Positions 1,333 through 24,524 of a stretch of DNA of 64,000 nucleotides are shown piece after piece. The notes below the pieces were generated by a model. It was not told the origin of the DNA. It did not search any database and saw only the letters and a list, made by a program, of their open reading frames with translations. The position numbers and the translations under genes were made by a program. The stretch covers positions 62,001 through 126,000 of the forward strand of contig JALWPV010000032.1 in the NCBI GenBank assembly GCA_027080775.1, in the 5' to 3' direction. Each line of letters starts with the position of its first letter. The first letter of the stretch is position 1. This DNA comes from Acidilobaceae archaeon (GTDB lineage: Archaea > Thermoproteota > Thermoprotei_A > Sulfolobales > Acidilobaceae).

Positions 1333-2766
1333 GTGAGCCTGGCTACAGCGGGTGTTATAGAGGGGCTCCTCTATGGAGCCCTCGCGGCGGGTCTGCTGGT
1401 ACCCCTAACGCCCCGGGAGAGGAGCCGCCCAGCCCTAGCGCTGGCGTGGATAGGCGTGCTGCTCTACTCGGCCGCCTCAGCTCTAACACTGGCCTACACT
1501 CTCTCGCACGGGCCCCTAGAACTATACTCCAGACTCGTAATATATGATAGGTTCGCTGCCTTCATGGCCTCCATAGCAGGCCTAGCAGCGATCCTAGCCC
1601 TACTCTCCATAGGATCCCAGGCTGCGGAGTGGCCCAGCCACCCGGCCTACTACAGCCTGCTCCCCATCATACTCTTCGGGGTCTACATGATAACAGGAGC
1701 GGCCAATGCCGTGATGGTGCTCGCGGTATGGCTGCTGGTCTCGGTGGCCAGCTACGTCGTGATAGCCCTGCCAGGCGACGCCGAGAGTAGGGCAGCCGCT
1801 GTCAGGTACATACTCATGGGCGCCATTGCAACGCTGTTCTTGGCGTTCTGGGTCGCAGTTCATGCAGTCGCAACTAGCAGTGTCGCCCTAGCCCCGCCTA
1901 GGACCGACATGTTCGACTTCAGCCTCTACCCCCAGGCTAGCATAGGGGCGCTCGCCATAACGCTCTTCCTAGCGGCGCTCGGGTTCAAGCTGGGCGTAGT
2001 GCCCTTCCACTGGTGGCTACCGAACGTGTACGCCCGTGCCGACGGGCGTGCGGTTAGCGTTGTCGCTGGCGTGGCGAAGGTCGGGTTCATAGCTGTCACT
2101 GCGAGGCTGATATACTATGCCGCGAGCCCCGCTAACGCGAAGGCGCTAGCGCTACTCCTCGCCGGGCTAGCCGTGGTGACGATGACCTATGGTAATATAG
2201 CGGCGCTCACCACGAGGGACCTGCAGGCGATACTGGCGTATAGCAGTATAGCACATATTGGCTACATTCTAACTGCCCTCGCGGCGGTGGCATACCTCAA
2301 GGGTTACGCTGGCGCTACAGCCGCTGAGGCCGCCCTCGCGGCGATAGCGATACACACCTTAGCGTATGCCACCTCCAAGTCACCCCTCTTCGCGGCGATA
2401 GGAGCTAAGCCTGAACCCGGCTTCAGGAGCCTGAGGGGCCTGCTAAGGACAAGCCCCGGCGCCGCGCTCGCGGTGGCGGTACTACTCCTGAGCCTCCTAG
2501 GCGTCCCGCCCCTCGTGGGCTTCTGGGGGAAGCTCTACATGTTCATGGCCGCTATAAAGTACTCCATACCACTAGTTGCGATAGCCCTCGTGAATAGCGG
2601 GATAAGCGCCGTCTACTACGTCATAGCCATAAGGGAGCTGGCGGCGCCCGAGGAACCCGTGGAGGCGCCTCCCGCGAGCGTGGTCGCAACGCTAACGGCC
2701 GCGGCGCTGATAGTACTAGTGGTGGGCCTAGCGGCTCCCTATCTCTACTCACTAATCATACCCTGA
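1333..2766 (+). CDS. nuoN: NADH-quinone oxidoreductase subunit N (NuoN-like)
   Basis: This is a second antiporter-like subunit of the complex I membrane arm, 477 residues and almost entirely transmembrane helices. Recognisable motifs are FKLGVVPFHWWLPNVYARA (the helix carrying the proton-path lysine), ILAYSSIAHIGYI and LSLLGVPPLVGFWGKLYMF, which is typical of NuoN/NdhB. The start is GTG, 6 nt after the NuoL stop, making it the last gene of the operon visible here. A pyrimidine-rich stretch follows the TGA stop at about 2767-2810 and may act as terminator. A NuoM or Mrp-type D subunit is the main alternative, but length and motifs favour NuoN. Confidence 0.9.
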   Translation: MSLATAGVIEGLLYGALAAGLLVPLTPRERSRPALALAWIGVLLYSAASALTLAYTLSHGPLELYSRLVIYDRFAAFMASIAGLAAILALLSIGSQAAEWPSHPAYYSLLPIILFGVYMITGAANAVMVLAVWLLVSVASYVVIALPGDAESRAAAVRYILMGAIATLFLAFWVAVHAVATSSVALAPPRTDMFDFSLYPQASIGALAITLFLAALGFKLGVVPFHWWLPNVYARADGRAVSVVAGVAKVGFIAVTARLIYYAASPANAKALALLLAGLAVVTMTYGNIAALTTRDLQAILAYSSIAHIGYILTALAAVAYLKGYAGATAAEAALAAIAIHTLAYATSKSPLFAAIGAKPEPGFRSLRGLLRTSPGAALAVAVLLLSLLGVPPLVGFWGKLYMFMAAIKYSIPLVAIALVNSGISAVYYVIAIRELAAPEEPVEAPPASVVATLTAAALIVLVVGLAAPYLYSLIIP

Positions 2767-2848
2767 GCTACTCTTTCTACCCTGTCGTCTATCCTTACTC
2801 CTTATCTGACGGCCTTCAAGCTAAACCCAGGTGCTCCCCTCTCCGGCA

Positions 2849-2856
2849 TTATATTA
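2849..2856 (+). promoter_or_regulatory. TATA element of the PLP decarboxylase gene
   Basis: TTATATTA lies about 38 nt before the ATG at 2891 in an otherwise GC-rich gap. A start site 26-27 nt downstream (about 2879) would leave a leader of about 12 nt that contains GAGGAG just before the ATG. Confidence 0.5.
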
Positions 2857-2890
2857 AGCTCGGCCAAGGAGGGGTTCGACTCGAGGAGTC

Positions 2891-4000
2891 ATGGCCGGCC
2901 TAGTCGAGGAGATCGTATGCGGCTCTCCGGGGCCCTCGAGGGCTAGCCGCGTCATAGGAGGCATGATACCCGAGCCTCCCTCCTGTGCCCTAGAAGAGGC
3001 GTTGCGCTGGGCTGGCGTGAACCTAGGCGACCCCTATTCTCACCCTGAGGTCCTAGAGGCAATCAAACTTGTCGTGGGCTTTGCCTCCCGCTCGGCCCTT
3101 GGGCGCCTCTACCCGGGCTGGGTGACTAGCGGTGCTACTGAATCCAACATACTAGCCGTGCTACACGCTAGAGAGGAAGGCTACAGGAGAGTGGTCTACT
3201 TCCCCAACGCCCACTACTCGGTAGCCAAGGCGGCCCGCATGGCTGGACTCGAGGAAATAGTTGTCAGGGCTATCGATGGGTACGCGCCGGACCTCGCCGC
3301 CCTAGAGGTGGTGCTAGAGGAGAACCCGGGCTCCCTCATCGTGGCCACCCTGGGCACGACCGAGACGGGCTACCTGGATCCCGTAGAGGCCATAGCACGG
3401 GTGGCTAGGAGGTACGACTCAATAGTGCACGTGGATGCGGCGTTTACCGGGCCCCTCCTCGCCTACCTCGGGAACCCCAAGGCCCCCAGGGCTCTTGACT
3501 CCACGATTAGAACAATGGCTCTCGATATGCACAAGATCCCTGAGGCCCCCATTGGGGTAGGTGTGCTGCTCGCGTATGACGAATCAGTCATAGAGGACCT
3601 CTGGTTCGAGGCGCCCTACATACCAGGCGGTAAGCAGTTCGGTCTCCTGGGCACGAGGCCCGCGGCGCCCCTCATGGCCGCGGCCTTCATAGTCGAGAGA
3701 CTCGAAACCGCCATGCCCCGCCTCACGGAGGAACTCATGAGAGCCGCCTCGAGGGTCTACAGAGAGCTGGTAGAGATGGGGCCCTACGGGTCCCCACACC
3801 CCCCTGAGAGCCCCGTGGTTTGCCTAACCCATCCTAGGCATTGGAGTATTCACAGGGAGCTACAGGCTCGAGGCTATAGGGTCTACAGGTGCCCCAGCTT
3901 TGGGGGTGTGAGGCTGGCGATAATGCCGCACACCCTCGGAGGTGTACTCGAGGAGTGGCTAGAGAACCTGGAGGCAGCGGCGCGAGGAGTTTCAGGCTAG
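2891..4000 (+). CDS. mfnA: Pyridoxal-phosphate-dependent decarboxylase (MfnA-like aspartate/tyrosine decarboxylase family)
   Basis: This is a group II PLP decarboxylase of 369 residues, close to archaeal MfnA length. In other archaea such enzymes make beta-alanine from aspartate (for coenzyme A) or tyramine from tyrosine. Visible motifs are TSGATESNI near the N-terminus, HVDAAFTGPL with the cofactor-binding Asp, and ALDMHKIPEAPIG, where Lys 215 should form the Schiff base. The ATG at 2891 has GAGGAG immediately upstream and a TATA element further up. The 3' end overlaps the next gene by 46 nt, suggesting translational coupling. In a non-methanogen, the aspartate to beta-alanine role is the more likely one, but substrate cannot be read from sequence alone. 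Confidence 0.8.
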   Translation: MAGLVEEIVCGSPGPSRASRVIGGMIPEPPSCALEEALRWAGVNLGDPYSHPEVLEAIKLVVGFASRSALGRLYPGWVTSGATESNILAVLHAREEGYRRVVYFPNAHYSVAKAARMAGLEEIVVRAIDGYAPDLAALEVVLEENPGSLIVATLGTTETGYLDPVEAIARVARRYDSIVHVDAAFTGPLLAYLGNPKAPRALDSTIRTMALDMHKIPEAPIGVGVLLAYDESVIEDLWFEAPYIPGGKQFGLLGTRPAAPLMAAAFIVERLETAMPRLTEELMRAASRVYRELVEMGPYGSPHPPESPVVCLTHPRHWSIHRELQARGYRVYRCPSFGGVRLAIMPHTLGGVLEEWLENLEAAARGVSG

Positions 4001-4698
4001 CCCTGCTGAGGTATAGGAGCCTAACAGGCCCCAGCGTCGATGTAGACACGGCGGTCGAGGTCGAGAGGCTAGAGGAGGAGATAGCCTCGCGAGTAAGGGA
4101 TGCAGCCGAGTCAGCCGCGGCTCAGGGGGAGGGTATTAATGCCCTCGCCTCGAGGCTATGGGAAACTGGTGTGATACAGGAGCTCTACGCTTACACGCTG
4201 AAGAGGCTGGGTCTGGAGGGTGGAGACCCGCTCGAGGCATACGAGAGGCTCCTCGAGGGAGACTACGACTCTCCAGGGGCTCAGGCGATGTTCATAGTCA
4301 TGCAGGCTATAGCTAGGGCTTACGCTGACGTGTTACTTGAGAGGGACGGTGTGAAGACTATCTTAACCCACGTGTGCCCCGTATGCGGGGTAGAGTCAGA
4401 CGTAATGGTGGCGGAGCCCGACGGTGGCTATAGCATGGTATGCCCCTTCTGCTACTATAAATGGCGGCTGCCCGGTAGGGGACTAGTATGCCCGAGGTGT
4501 GGGTCGCGCGATAAGTTCTCCCTCGGCCTATATATGGATAAGAGTGATAGGAGGGTTGCGCTGCTCCACTGCCAGGAATGCGGCTACACCGCTAGGGTCA
4601 TAATGGATGCCTCGATAACAGAAGGCGTTCCCAGGAGTGTGTTACCCCTCCTAGCATTAGGGGCGGATAGGTTCAGGGGGCTCCTCGGGGAGGGCTAG
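3955..4698 (+). CDS. FdhE-like zinc-ribbon protein
   Basis: A 247-residue protein with a helical N-terminal half and a C-terminal half carrying four CxxC pairs (CPVC, CPFC, CPRC, CQEC) spaced as in FdhE, the formate dehydrogenase accessory protein. FdhE proteins bind metal through these pairs. The open frame extends upstream to 3889, but GTG at 3955 has GGAGGTG about 10 nt before it and is the better start; it overlaps the decarboxylase gene by 46 nt. No formate dehydrogenase gene is in the window, so its client is unknown. The gene meets the convergent MBL-fold gene on a shared CTAG, in which each strand reads a TAG stop. Confidence 0.6.
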   Translation: MAREPGGSGARSFRLALLRYRSLTGPSVDVDTAVEVERLEEEIASRVRDAAESAAAQGEGINALASRLWETGVIQELYAYTLKRLGLEGGDPLEAYERLLEGDYDSPGAQAMFIVMQAIARAYADVLLERDGVKTILTHVCPVCGVESDVMVAEPDGGYSMVCPFCYYKWRLPGRGLVCPRCGSRDKFSLGLYMDKSDRRVALLHCQECGYTARVIMDASITEGVPRSVLPLLALGADRFRGLLGEG

Positions 4699-5687
4699 GG
4701 GAGGGCGAGGGCCGGGATACCCAGCCTCCTCTCTATGTATTTGGCGGTGAAGCGCGCCTCTCTCCCCCTGTAGGCGTCTACAATCACGAGGCCTGGCTTG
4801 GCTTCCTCGACGTATTCGATCACCTCCTTGAATGAGGCGTGATCGCTAAAGGAGACGTTGAACACGTTCTCGGATACCCTCACAACGATGCCGCGGAGTT
4901 CCATACCGGTGAGCCTTATGTGAACTCCCGGTCTCCTCCTCATGGAGCGGAATCGGTTGGTGTGCGCGAAAACTACGACTGGCTCTCCGTCGACCATGCT
5001 ATCGTAGCCTATGAGCGGCTCTACATTGACCGAATAAAACTCGGAGGCCACCCTCGCCAGCTGGATGGTTCTTGGATCGGCTGCGAATGGTGCTGTGACG
5101 CCTCTGAGGCGTAGTTCCACCATGACCTCCTGTAGCTTCCCGTTGAACCCGTAGATGTAGACGGTGCCTCTCCTGAGCCCCTCCTCGACTAACTCGAGGA
5201 GGGCAGCTAGAGCGTCCCACTCTCCCCATCTCCTCTGGCTGGCCGGGCTACCGTAGGTTGCATCTATGACGAGCACGTCGAGGCCCCTCATGGGCTCCGT
5301 GCCAGGCATCTTGAAGTCCCCTGTATAGCCCACCCTATACTTGGGGCCCTCCACCTCGACCTGGGCACTCCCGGCTATGTGGCGGGCCTCGTGTAGCGTT
5401 ATCGTCTCCTCCTTCACCGAGACAGGCTGCTCGTAGGGGAGCGGGAGCCTCTTGTGCTCGGGGACGCTCCTTCCAAGGATCTCGAGGAACCTGAAAGTGG
5501 TGGGCGTCGCAGCCACGAAGAGGGCTCTCCTAACGCTGCTCGAAAGGCCTCCCAGGTGATCGTCGTGCGCGTGGGTCACAACTCTGACGAGGCGTCCCGC
5601 GAATCCATCGGCCTCAACGAGCCTGCCGAGGAGGACCGCGCCCCTCCTCGTAATACTAGCAAGCCTGAGCGCCTCGGCCTGCTCCAA
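4695..5687 (-). CDS. MBL-fold (beta-CASP-like) metallo-hydrolase, RNA-processing exonuclease family
   Basis: A 330-residue metallo-beta-lactamase-fold protein. THAHDDHLGG near residue 38 is the HxHxDH metal motif, HIAGSAQVEV and GYTGDFK are the next metal-binding motifs, and FSDHAS near the C-terminus resembles the terminal motif of the CPSF73/beta-CASP group. The middle part carries a beta-CASP-like insert. Relatives process RNA 3' ends or degrade RNA; a DNA nuclease of the Snm1/Artemis type is the alternative. The start is TTG with GGTG upstream. It runs convergent to the FdhE-like gene. Confidence 0.7.
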   Translation of the reverse strand: MEQAEALRLASITRRGAVLLGRLVEADGFAGRLVRVVTHAHDDHLGGLSSSVRRALFVAATPTTFRFLEILGRSVPEHKRLPLPYEQPVSVKEETITLHEARHIAGSAQVEVEGPKYRVGYTGDFKMPGTEPMRGLDVLVIDATYGSPASQRRWGEWDALAALLELVEEGLRRGTVYIYGFNGKLQEVMVELRLRGVTAPFAADPRTIQLARVASEFYSVNVEPLIGYDSMVDGEPVVVFAHTNRFRSMRRRPGVHIRLTGMELRGIVVRVSENVFNVSFSDHASFKEVIEYVEEAKPGLVIVDAYRGREARFTAKYIERRLGIPALALP

Positions 5688-5742
5688 GGGAGCACCGGAC
5701 CCCCAAGCCTAGGGGGCCCGCCCGGTATAAGGGGTGACGCAC

Positions 5743-6516
5743 CTACGCCCATGGACCCCGAGGGAGGACAACCACTATCGCGCGTGGCCTCTTCATGAAC
5801 GCTATGATTGCGGCCACGGTCACAGCTACTGCGCCTCCACCCAACAGTATTCGGGTCTTCGAGGTGATCTGTGGAGCGCCACAGGGGGGTTGGCCCCTGA
5901 CAAAGCGCGTGACGGCGTCTACGTGAATGGTAAAGCCCCTCCCCTCAATGACGGCCTTCACGGCGAGCGGTGTGGATCCTCTAGCATCAGTGTAAGCCGT
6001 AATCGCGCCGCCTGTCACCCCGCCGCCAGGGGCGAGGCTGGCCACCCAGCCGCGGGCATTACACTTGTAGACCTCCTGCCCTTGCTCCGTGCTCGGTGCT
6101 ACAACGAAGACGATGCTCTTGCTCTCGCTCGTGGGCCTCCAGGCCCTACCTACAGCGGGAGGCTCCTCCATGACGCCCTTAATCAGGGAGACGGCCTTCG
6201 AGAGAAGCTGGCTCTCAACGTAGCCCCACAAGCTCGTAGCAGTTATGATCCCAGGAGACGCGCTTACCACATAAACCCTCTCCAGGCTCCCGCCCTCAAA
6301 CACTAGTATAAGCCTAGCATAGACTGTGTAAACCCCGAGCCTAGCCAGGGGACCGCTGATCTCGTGCGCTGTAACGTCAGCGTAAACCCAGAGTACCTCG
6401 GAAGTGGGGGCCTCCAGTAGATAGCCCTCCTGGGCGCGCGCGGCAACAGGCGCTAGCATTAGGGCCAGGAAAAGAGCCAGGGCTGCCAGCCTGAGGCTCC
6501 TCACCAGCCGCGGCAC
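5743..6516 (-). CDS. Secreted or membrane-anchored protein of unknown function
   Basis: 257 residues, no family recognised. The N-terminus has a basic stretch and a hydrophobic core ending in AARA, a plausible signal peptide with cleavage near residue 28. The C-terminus has one hydrophobic segment (LLGGGAVAVTVAAIIAFM) followed by basic residues, so the roughly 200-residue middle domain is predicted to sit outside the cell, anchored at the C-terminus. One Cys occurs in the middle domain and another near PPCGAPQ. It lies 19 nt downstream of the pyrophosphatase stop and is probably cotranscribed with it. The GTG at 6516 is the first possible start; a second GTG follows five codons later. Confidence 0.6.
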   Translation of the reverse strand: MPRLVRSLRLAALALFLALMLAPVAARAQEGYLLEAPTSEVLWVYADVTAHEISGPLARLGVYTVYARLILVFEGGSLERVYVVSASPGIITATSLWGYVESQLLSKAVSLIKGVMEEPPAVGRAWRPTSESKSIVFVVAPSTEQGQEVYKCNARGWVASLAPGGGVTGGAITAYTDARGSTPLAVKAVIEGRGFTIHVDAVTRFVRGQPPCGAPQITSKTRILLGGGAVAVTVAAIIAFMKRPRAIVVVLPRGPWA

Positions 6517-22175: not shown

Positions 22176-24524
22176 TTAGGGGCTGGGCTTCCTTAGAGCC
22201 CCGTAGGCCGCTATGGCGGCTATTATGAGTACAATAACTACCAGGGCTAGCGTGGCGTCGAGGAGCTTGGCCTGCGAGTTTAGCTTGCTGTTGAGGCTGC
22301 TCATGTTGGCTTCTAGGGTTGAGAGCCTTGAGTGTATGCTGGAGATCTTCTGGTTTACGCTGTTGAAGTTCTCCTTCTGGGAAGCCTTGAGGTCCGCGAG
22401 GCTCGCGTTAATTACACCAAGACTCGTCTTGACTACGGCGAAGTCTCCCTCGAGCGCCTTCACTTCCCCACTTAGGGAGCCGAGTGTGGTCTGGACTGTT
22501 GCTATTCCATCCTCTATCTTCACTATTCTAGGCTTCAACTGTGCCACGCTTACGTTTACCTCTCCTAGCACGGTCTTAATGGTTGCCACGCCGCCTCTGA
22601 TGGACTCGATCACAGGCTTTAGGGAGTCCAGTGTGGCCTTGACCTCGCCGAGGCTGGTCTTTACGACGGCTACATTATCCTTTATATCGACTATTTCGGG
22701 CTTCAGGCTGTCTAGGCTAGCCTTGACCTCGCCTATACTCGTGTTAAGCACTGCTACTCCATTCTCTATCTTAATTATCTCTGGCTTGAGCTGCCCAATG
22801 CTCACGTTTACCTCTCCTAGCACGGTCTTAATTGTTGCCACGCCGTTACTCACGTTCTCTAGTACGGCTCCGTACTCCTCTACTATGGCTCTAAGAGCTG
22901 CTACGCTCGAGGAGATCTGGGGTATTGTCGCCAGCTCCCTGCTAGCATAGAGCACGGCACCGTCATCCGCCGCTAGGAACCAGTAATAGGCCCTGGCCCT
23001 CACCATGTAGGTCTGCGACGCGTTCGCGGCTGGCACGTGGATTGTGGCCACGTAGACTCCAGGCTCAACGGGCTGGGCGCCCGCGGTCTCTGCGTAACCG
23101 TTGGGTCCAATGAGGCTAACATCCAGCTCGTCAACGTATATATCGGCTTTACCGTAGCTTGTGAGTACATAGACCGTGACATTGCTGTCAGGGCTCACCA
23201 TAGGCGGTGCCACGACCTTCACCTTGAGGTGCTCGGTGGGCTTCATTGTGTGGAAGTAGTAGTCCAGGAATATGCCCCACCACGTGTCGACAGCAAAGGC
23301 CACTTGCTCGAAGTATTCGTACCTCTCCTCCAGGTACCAGTCCACGTCGGGTGGGAAGTATATTGTCACACCGTGACCTCCAGCGGATGACGGCCCGGCG
23401 TAATTCGCTATTACCGAGGCGTTGAGGTCGCTTAGTAGCCTTGAGGCAGCTGGCCTGGGATCATAGGGGAACCCCTGTGTGGAGTTAATGGCCTCCGCGA
23501 AGCCGTATAGGTCTATATAGTCGCCTGAGCCGAACTTCTTCGCCTCACTCCACGCCTTATGGACTGCGGTGGCGTTGTTCGGGTAGAAGAAGACGTCGTA
23601 GGTTAGCAGCATAGCCATACTGTCAATGTCTCTTACGACGTTCTGGAACGCAGTAAGGTTTATGGCTGAGAGCGTCACCCAGTCGAGGGGTTCCACCTTA
23701 GTGTAGTAGTACTCGTAGGACTCGACTATCTTGGCGGCGAGCTGTGCTGGCGTCATATTCGGGTTTAGTATTAGGGGCACCAGGAAGCCCGAGTAGTACC
23801 AACCGTCCCAGGGCTCGTACTCCTCAGACGCGACCACTATGCTGGCGGTGCCCATGAGGTCATATGCTACCTCGGTCATCTGCATGAGGCAGGCGTCGAA
23901 GCCTACTATATCGAGGTGCACGCCCATGCTCGAGAGCTTCTCCATGACGTCCCTGAGCTCAGTCTCGGTTAGGTGGTCATTGTCGGTGTAGTCCCAGCAG
24001 CATCCCCTGAGTGGCATTACGTGGCCACTCCTCTTCCACCCATTACCGTGGTCCCAGAATATGAGGGCGTAGTGGTCTGCGGGAAAGTTGTGCACTGTAT
24101 AGTTCACGAAGTATAGGACCGTTGAGGGATCACCCATGTCGACCTCCCCGAGGTCGAGGAGTAGCTTGGAGTGTATGGTTTGATTGTCGGTGTCGTGTTG
24201 CACTAGGTATATCCTGGCATCAGTCCAGTTGCCGTTCGTGGAGTCATAGCCCGGGATCCTATCCATGAGCACGAGTATGGCTACGTCCTGCGTGGAACCG
24301 GCCACTTCCATTTCGTTGAAGTCACTTATGCCCGCGTCCTCCAGGTTGTTGTCAGCGTCCATGTAGACCATTATGGTCCACTTATAGTGGTGGACGCCCT
24401 GCCTATCAGCGAGCGTCTTGACGAGCCCGTTCAAGGGGAGGGCTGCGGGTACTACTAGGAGGGCGAGTATTATGACCGCTGCTAGGAGGGCCTTAACCCT
24501 CACGTTGGCCCCCCATGAGGACAC
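22176..24524 (-). CDS. Membrane-anchored C11 (clostripain-like) cysteine protease with coiled-coil stalk
   Basis: 782 residues in five parts. (1) A signal peptide or anchor, residues about 8-32. (2) A C11 peptidase domain, about 45-410, with WTIMVYMDADNNLE, catalytic His 159 in WDHGNGW and Cys 212 in FDACLMQM. (3) A beta-rich domain, about 415-545. (4) A stalk, about 555-715, built of 28-residue repeats with perfect 3-4 hydrophobic spacing, followed by more heptads. (5) A C-terminal membrane helix and basic tail. The protease should sit outside the cell on a coiled-coil stalk. GTG 24524 lies 25 nt after TATA TTAATATATT, so the mRNA is probably leaderless. Clostripains often self-process. Confidence 0.87.
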   Translation of the reverse strand: MSSWGANVRVKALLAAVIILALLVVPAALPLNGLVKTLADRQGVHHYKWTIMVYMDADNNLEDAGISDFNEMEVAGSTQDVAILVLMDRIPGYDSTNGNWTDARIYLVQHDTDNQTIHSKLLLDLGEVDMGDPSTVLYFVNYTVHNFPADHYALIFWDHGNGWKRSGHVMPLRGCCWDYTDNDHLTETELRDVMEKLSSMGVHLDIVGFDACLMQMTEVAYDLMGTASIVVASEEYEPWDGWYYSGFLVPLILNPNMTPAQLAAKIVESYEYYYTKVEPLDWVTLSAINLTAFQNVVRDIDSMAMLLTYDVFFYPNNATAVHKAWSEAKKFGSGDYIDLYGFAEAINSTQGFPYDPRPAASRLLSDLNASVIANYAGPSSAGGHGVTIYFPPDVDWYLEERYEYFEQVAFAVDTWWGIFLDYYFHTMKPTEHLKVKVVAPPMVSPDSNVTVYVLTSYGKADIYVDELDVSLIGPNGYAETAGAQPVEPGVYVATIHVPAANASQTYMVRARAYYWFLAADDGAVLYASRELATIPQISSSVAALRAIVEEYGAVLENVSNGVATIKTVLGEVNVSIGQLKPEIIKIENGVAVLNTSIGEVKASLDSLKPEIVDIKDNVAVVKTSLGEVKATLDSLKPVIESIRGGVATIKTVLGEVNVSVAQLKPRIVKIEDGIATVQTTLGSLSGEVKALEGDFAVVKTSLGVINASLADLKASQKENFNSVNQKISSIHSRLSTLEANMSSLNSKLNSQAKLLDATLALVVIVLIIAAIAAYGALRKPSP
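22552..22593 (-). repeat. Near-identical 42-bp repeat, copy 2 (stalk repeat unit 4)
   Basis: Differs at one base from 22804-22845. The spacing of 252 bp equals three 28-codon units, so the copies encode stalk repeats 1 and 4. Confidence 0.85.
22804..22845 (-). repeat. Near-identical 42-bp repeat, copy 1 (stalk repeat unit 1)
   Basis: Partner of 22552-22593. The protein encoded in both begins VATIKTVLGEVNVS. Units 2 and 3 between them are more diverged. Confidence 0.85.

Follow-up and report, generated by a model that had tools for sequence, protein, structure and literature searches.

Gene and domain layout at the locus

The window, the whole stretch of 64,000 nucleotides that was analysed, comes from a thermophilic archaeon of the Acidilobaceae and contains a gene for a membrane-anchored protein with a peptidase C11 head and a repetitive stalk (Table 1). 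The plus strand of 22176-24524 is full of stop codons, and the open reading frame runs from 24524 down to 22176; an earlier note on this DNA had given this extent exactly, and the strand, which it did not state, is the minus strand. The neighbouring genes in the window, read from their translations as MoaE-like, a helicase and a small zinc-ribbon-like ORF, revealed no functional link. A contig scan gave two close relatives, both from Acidilobaceae MAGs: L041, an orthologue with 96% identity along its full length, and L042 (69%); more distant relatives came from broader genome searches. dN/dS was 0.06 against the former and 0.15 against the latter; by this sequence-based measure the gene is under purifying selection and the protein is maintained. 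The gene was present in three of the four genomes of its own genus, the fourth being 61% complete.

Table 1 Features of the stalked C11 gene; residues refer to the encoded protein
Feature	Position in the window	Strand	Basis or remark
Whole gene	22176..24524	-	782 aa, GTG start, stop at 22176-22178
Predicted signal peptide, residues about 1-34	24423..24524	-	hydrophobic segment around residue 13; N-terminus hydrophobic in orthologues
Peptidase C11 (clostripain) domain, residues 53-422	23259..24368	-	PF03415, clostripain alignment, AF2 fold
Predicted catalytic His159 (WDHGNGW)	24048..24050	-	equals clostripain His176
Asp210, predicted S1 (Arg/Lys P1) specificity residue, two before Cys	23895..23897	-	equals clostripain Asp229 / PmC11 Asp177
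Predicted catalytic Cys212 (GFDACLMQM)	23889..23891	-	equals clostripain Cys231
Ig/filamin-like beta-sandwich between head and stalk, residues 425-535	22920..23252	-	AF2, Foldseek
Canonical coiled-coil lead-in, residues 541-560	22845..22904	-	same heptad phase as repeats
Stalk repeats, residues 561-721	22362..22844	-	four 28-mers, one 21-mer, one diverged unit
Canonical coiled coil after one phase shift, SlaB-like, residues 722-757	22254..22361	-	heptads, AF2 helix, SlaB match
C-terminal transmembrane helix, residues 758-776	22197..22253	-	hydropathy peak 2.89 at residue 759
Short C-terminal tail	22179..22196	-	basic residues in all orthologues

The head matched PF03415 (Peptidase_C11) with an E-value of 2.2e-57 and 195.7 bits against a cut-off of 25.8, over profile positions 1-358 of 359, and phmmer aligned it with clostripain (9cip, E 5.9e-28). 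The AF2 model of the head had target-normalised TM-scores of 0.67 against 9cip and 0.72-0.73 against 6n9j, with 6mzo within 0.67-0.73, and the predicted structure displays the alpha/beta/alpha fold of clan CD. The two residues that the earlier note had picked out, His159 and Cys212, lie in WDHGNGW and GFDACLMQM, respectively. Their counterparts in clostripain are His176 and Cys231, and its P1-determining Asp229, like Asp177 of PmC11, corresponds to Asp210 (PMC11296011). His159 and Asp210 were invariant among seven aligned stalked C11 proteins and Cys212 was kept in six of them. The second stalked C11 copy in genome G135 (L080:4622-6616) has Asp in place of the catalytic Cys in the alignment and is probably inactive. 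Five Lys/Arg residues (K164, R165, R173, R191, K196) lie between His159 and Cys212, the interval in which the activation cuts of clostripain (PMC11296011) and globupain fall. Because the S1 Asp matches and Lys/Arg residues are available between His and Cys, self-activation and cleavage after Arg/Lys would be expected of this head.

The beta-rich domain reported earlier was recovered as eight AF2 strands (433-527, pLDDT about 80-90), for which Foldseek returned Ig/filamin-like matches. A profile of this linker domain matched C25 stalk proteins (L095, E 5e-11; L099, E 9e-7; L087, E 1e-4) as well as the protease-less stalk protein L067 (E 8e-7), all E-values being computed over a small set of fetched ORFs. 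Since the domain is found both with C25 heads and without a protease, head and mount are separate modules. The signal peptide and membrane helix proposed earlier agree with hydrophobic peaks at about residues 13 and 759, and the protein contains 15 N-glycosylation sequons. The positive-inside rule is established, and the basic tail suggests a cytosolic C-terminus. The hydrophobic N-terminus, the sequons, the C-terminal transmembrane segment and the basic tail together point to a head outside and a tail inside.

The stalk follows a heptad pattern and ends like SlaB

The 28-residue repeats lie at 561-588, 589-616, 617-644 and 645-672, with pairwise identities of 13-23 out of 28, and are followed by a 21-mer (673-693) and a diverged 28-residue unit (694-721), so that the four repeats plus two diverged ones counted in the earlier note were found again. 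Each repeat carries the motif (D/G/N)(G/D/N)-V-A-x-I-x-T-x-L-G in a fixed heptad phase. Over residues 553-755 the heptad score in the best register was 0.75, compared with a maximum of 0.31 in 5000 shuffles; ILVMF occupied 88% of a/d positions and 13% of the others. The 3-4 hydrophobic spacing claimed earlier therefore goes far beyond chance, but it is not fully continuous as had been proposed, being interrupted by one phase shift at about 705-725. The hydrophobic period was 3.51, and the 7-residue periodicity resembles that of the SlaB coil.

A single heptad register (528-725) spans the lead-in coil and the repeats; the same was seen in L067 (262-515) and L121 (538-709), the L067 register taking in motif units and canonical coil alike over about 250 residues. 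The KTxLG motif occupied one and the same heptad phase in nearly every stalk examined. Of 55 motif-to-motif spacings, 43 were multiples of 7, and both 21- and 28-residue units were in use; since many spacings come from related proteins, we take this count as support and attach no probability to it. In an alignment of 73 units from about 20 proteins, positions 2, 5, 9, 12, 16 and 19 were hydrophobic in 88-100%, position 23 in 89% and position 26 in 77%, position 24 was variable and included Glu, and T7, L9 and G10 were partly imposed by the search motif. The recurring unit, (D/G/N)(G/D/N)-V-A-x-I-(K/N/Q)-T-x-L-G, turned up in stalk proteins of the S-layer-like, protease and other types. For it no named family was found, and it may represent a stalk motif not described before.

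When the unit profile was compared with the PDB, reovirus sigma-1 led (E 4e-6), followed by Ile-zipper GCN4 fusions, EibD, viral fusion proteins and SlaB; no beta-solenoid was recognised among these matches, and the PDB neighbours of the unit are mainly trimers. A search of phage records with the stalk gave no match. Pfam coiled-coil families that matched the stalk were set aside as reflecting composition, not homology.

The end of the protein (residues about 655-779) matched SlaB of Sulfolobus acidocaldarius (8qox_B, E 1e-5 to 3e-5). With hydropathy, this match identifies a membrane-anchored C-terminal coiled coil of the SlaB type. SlaB, the anchor of Sulfolobales S-layers, likewise combines one or more beta-sandwich domains, a heptad coil and a C-terminal transmembrane helix, but it has no enzyme head. 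For the helices at its C-terminus, AlphaFold gave a trimeric coiled coil that was fitted to tomography density, and SlaB sets the height of the S-layer (PMC10903991, PMC6911244). We rejected an identification as SlaB itself: NCBIfam NF040788 gave E 1e-8 but 34.2 bits against a cut-off of 700 bits.

Coiled coil or beta fold in the repeats

The earlier note had named a globular or beta-solenoid prediction for the repeats as the outcome that would speak against a stalk, and the single-chain AF2 model gave a beta prediction of that kind: helix was predicted at 541-551 and 714-777, and beta strands at 553-708 with a pLDDT of about 80-87. AF2 placed strands in the repeats of the diverged relative L121 as well, at a pLDDT of 32-61. 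Fourier analysis alone does not cleanly separate helix from strand, as a 3-4 heptad pattern also gives the 3/7 harmonic, so the fold call relies on the unbroken phase, the 7-residue steps in spacing and comparison with solved structures. We judge the repeats to be a helical coiled coil and the strands an artefact, given the single phase shared with the flanking coil, the variation of units by 7 residues, the single motifs within coils and the helical PDB matches. The possible helix breakers, namely the D/G/N pair, Gly10 and Pro21, are conserved, each once per 28 residues, and are odd for a plain helix.

Were the repeats instead a compact beta-solenoid or another beta-rich fold, the mount would be a short neck only, with about 3 nm of solenoid and about 6 nm of helix. 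The strands, at +0/+8/+16 of each repeat with the pLDDT values given above and reproduced at low confidence in L121, speak for such a fold, as do the turn-like (D/G/N)(G/D/N) pair and the Gly at constant positions and the beta-helix predicted beside the membrane anchor in some archaeal S-layer proteins (PMC8640222). We nevertheless consider it improbable. Hydrophobic residues at 2, 5, 9, 12, 16, 19, 23 and 26 of 28 follow a strict 3-4 spacing, not the in/out alternation of strands stacked rung by rung that a beta-solenoid displays; the heptad phase is unbroken across the borders between repeats and coil; a 21-residue unit is tolerated, with spacings quantised by 7; the motif occurs singly in the coil of the S-layer-like protein L037, its copies 140-160 residues apart, where a one-rung solenoid is impossible; and in the PDB the unit matches helical coiled coils. 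For near-perfect repeats, AF2 is known to predict beta-solenoids too often (PMC11795689), although the present repeats are only partly identical. A hybrid stalk, in which the helices of a trimeric coiled coil give way at each KTxLG, every 28 residues, to a small non-helical element like a beta-layer, has a somewhat better chance and is still unlikely. It would account for the strands being placed exactly at the motif and for conserved surface positions that a plain coil does not need (A3 and the D/G/N pair; T7 and G10 partly by unit selection). The heptads, however, pass through the motif without discontinuity, whereas known beta-layers have one. Moreover, sigma-1 carries a similar ISTIESRLGEMD stretch aligned to the motif, in a region that is presumably helical in its structure. 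Preferring the coiled-coil reading, we regard this as an apparent case of AlphaFold2 turning a coiled coil into beta strands.

Stalked C11 proteins are few and patchily distributed

Among about 37 distinct C11 domains, drawn from order and phylum samples and named genomes, eight were followed by the Ig-like domain, a C-terminal stalk and a transmembrane helix. They represent three family-level groups: three genomes of the gene's own genus, group f9 (four proteins) and group f13 (one, elsewhere in the class); the architecture is shared by L041, L042, L013, L023, L024, L121 and the diverged paralogue L029. Seven of the eight formed a clade with support of 100/98, L029 being a long branch. Across 48 genomes of the family the C11 head was confined to the gene's own genus, and the orthologue set is small and patchy.

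The layout was reversed in three C11 proteins of one f7 genus, which have an N-terminal membrane anchor, a coiled coil at about 33-248 and then the C11 domain; this mount, in which the coil precedes the enzyme and follows the signal anchor (L018, L021, L020), apparently arose independently. The remaining C11 proteins of the order carried other C-terminal domains, often with a transmembrane segment and no stalk, or were plain secreted enzymes. Seven C11 proteins of order-mates (L126, L127, L128, L130, L132, L133, L134), of about 1040-1120 aa, had poly-proline tails (PPPPPPP), mostly right after the C-terminal transmembrane helix.

Other stalk proteins carry different heads

The same genome encodes further proteins of this kind. 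L038:4094-7540 (contig C72) is a 1149-aa gingipain-type C25 protease (PF01364, E 2e-36) with a C25 propeptide and a heptad coil at about 1001-1123 followed by a C-terminal transmembrane helix. L165:31-3291 (contig C74) is a 1087-aa S8 subtilisin (PF00082, E 4e-45) with a helical-looking region at about 775-1020, then a Ser/Thr linker and a transmembrane helix; its residues 900-1010 have an 11-residue-like hydrophobic period (3.70), as in tetrabrachion. L037:82-4728 (contig C48), a 1549-aa S-layer-like protein with homologues in other genera of the family, has an interrupted coiled coil at about 1120-1523 and a transmembrane helix. A solute-binding protein (Peripla_BP_2; L040:2139-3659, contig C22) has an N-terminal transmembrane segment and a coiled coil. 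A search of the genome for thermopsin found none.

Of some 30 C25 proteins, about a dozen showed heptads resembling a stalk close to the C-terminus, in most cases ahead of a transmembrane helix. In genome G157 a protease-less gene encoding beta domain and stalk overlaps the start of a stalked C25 gene (L072:6065-7732 and 2295-6068); the beta domains of the pair are 38% identical, suggesting a mixed assembly. The stalked C25 and S8 proteins of the order resemble the C11 protein in having a signal peptide, a protease, a beta-rich region, a helical stalk and a transmembrane helix, some C25 proteins even the same Ig-like domain; they differ in that their catalytic domains are unrelated or related at the clan level only and in their stalk lengths and repeat types.

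If helical, the stalks would measure 32 nm in the C11 protein, 18 nm in C25, 36 nm in S8 and up to 60 nm in L037, lengths that are arithmetic at 0.1485 nm per residue and not measurements. Because the protease stalks would then be shorter than the L037 coil, the proteases would sit beneath the canopy. We tentatively propose that Thermoproteia share a reusable surface-display module, composed of an Ig-like domain, a KTxLG heptad stalk and a membrane helix, which serves S-layer proteins and onto which at least three protease families have been grafted, set at different heights of the quasi-periplasm.

Comparison with known stalk-mounted and C11 proteases

In Staphylothermus marinus, too, a coiled-coil stalk, that of tetrabrachion, fixes the height of a protease, STABLE, within a crenarchaeal surface layer. 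The subtilisin STABLE, a protein in its own right, is bound to the right-handed, 70 nm stalk of 11-residue repeats at a point 32 nm below its branch point (PMC5744192). This places it about 38 nm above the membrane, near the 32 nm estimated for the C11 stalk. The two systems differ in that STABLE is an S8 enzyme, separate from a four-stranded stalk of right-handed hendecads, whereas here the C11 enzyme is fused to a stalk of heptads in 28-residue units, with a hydrophobic period of 3.51. The best reading is that the C11 stalk protein is analogous to tetrabrachion/STABLE and not homologous with it. The earlier note had proposed a stalk-mounted cysteine protease independent of tetrabrachion: the family and the anchoring held, while the mechanism is of another kind, with fusion, heptads and a SlaB-like end, and the protein is not a lone case. 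According to a 2017 review, STABLE on tetrabrachion is the only archaeal S-layer component with reported enzymatic activity (PMC5744192), and in the literature covered, which took in few subscription journals, we found no stalked C11 or C25 protease in archaea.

With clostripain, PmC11 and globupain, the last a characterised archaeal C11 enzyme from Archaeoglobales, the head shares the fold, the His/Cys dyad, the S1 Asp and Lys/Arg residues between His and Cys; a stalk or membrane anchor is absent from the published descriptions of the three that were examined.

Proposed role of the stalked C11 protease

We propose, with a probability of about 0.6, that the gene encodes a stalked, anchored C11 protease on a trimeric heptad coil, with its heads in the quasi-periplasm and mainly serving peptide feeding. 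The product would be a membrane glycoprotein of type I topology that is exported by means of its signal peptide and stays attached through its C-terminal membrane helix. Its chains would oligomerise, most likely in threes like those of SlaB, and wind into a left-handed coiled coil that covers about 217 residues and, if helical throughout, about 32 nm. The Ig-like domain would join the stalk to the C11 head, so that several heads would occupy a fixed zone above the membrane, inside the quasi-periplasm and not outside the canopy, because the coil of the probable S-layer protein is longer (about 400 residues). Self-cleavage after a Lys/Arg located between His159 and Cys212 would activate each head, whose substrates would in turn be cut after Arg/Lys. 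The tether would prevent the loss of enzyme and peptides from the cell. Digestion, in this tethered form, of proteins entering the quasi-periplasm is the most likely role, with trimming of surface proteins as the alternative. Indirect support comes from other archaea that degrade proteins, whose genomes contain clostripain- and gingipain-type enzymes (PMC6461988), and from the transporter-like neighbours of the C11 gene in f9 described below.

The same stalked enzyme might have the maturation or turnover of the cell's own S-layer and other surface proteins as its main job, instead of feeding. STABLE has been proposed to cut the tetrabrachion precursor (PMC5744192), the genome encodes the large S-layer-like stalk protein L037, conserved in the family, and a constant height within the quasi-periplasm would suit an S-layer substrate. 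Relatives that have an S-layer-like protein and lack the C11 gene, however, imply that C11 is not generally needed for that protein, and the C11 gene of two species in one f9 genus lies near genes that read, from their ORFs, as polar amino-acid ABC transporter-like (L081, L082) and thus look like uptake genes; we hold a maturation role to be possible, with the odds clearly against it. Far less probable is a reading in which the hydrophobic helix at the C-terminus acts as a signal for processing and the protease, once mature, is set free into the medium. Some archaeal surface proteins do lose their C-terminal transmembrane helix during lipid anchoring (PMC8640222), but the sequence before the helix contains no PGF-type motif, and SlaB, which has the same end of coil and transmembrane helix, remains anchored.

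On the reading of a tethered, feeding protease, the occurrence of fused, stalked C11, C25 and S8 enzymes across the order suggests that the quasi-periplasm is a digestion zone of set height. The KTxLG unit would be useful for annotating crenarchaeal surface proteins. Tethered digestion in the surface layer looks like a reused design and not an oddity.
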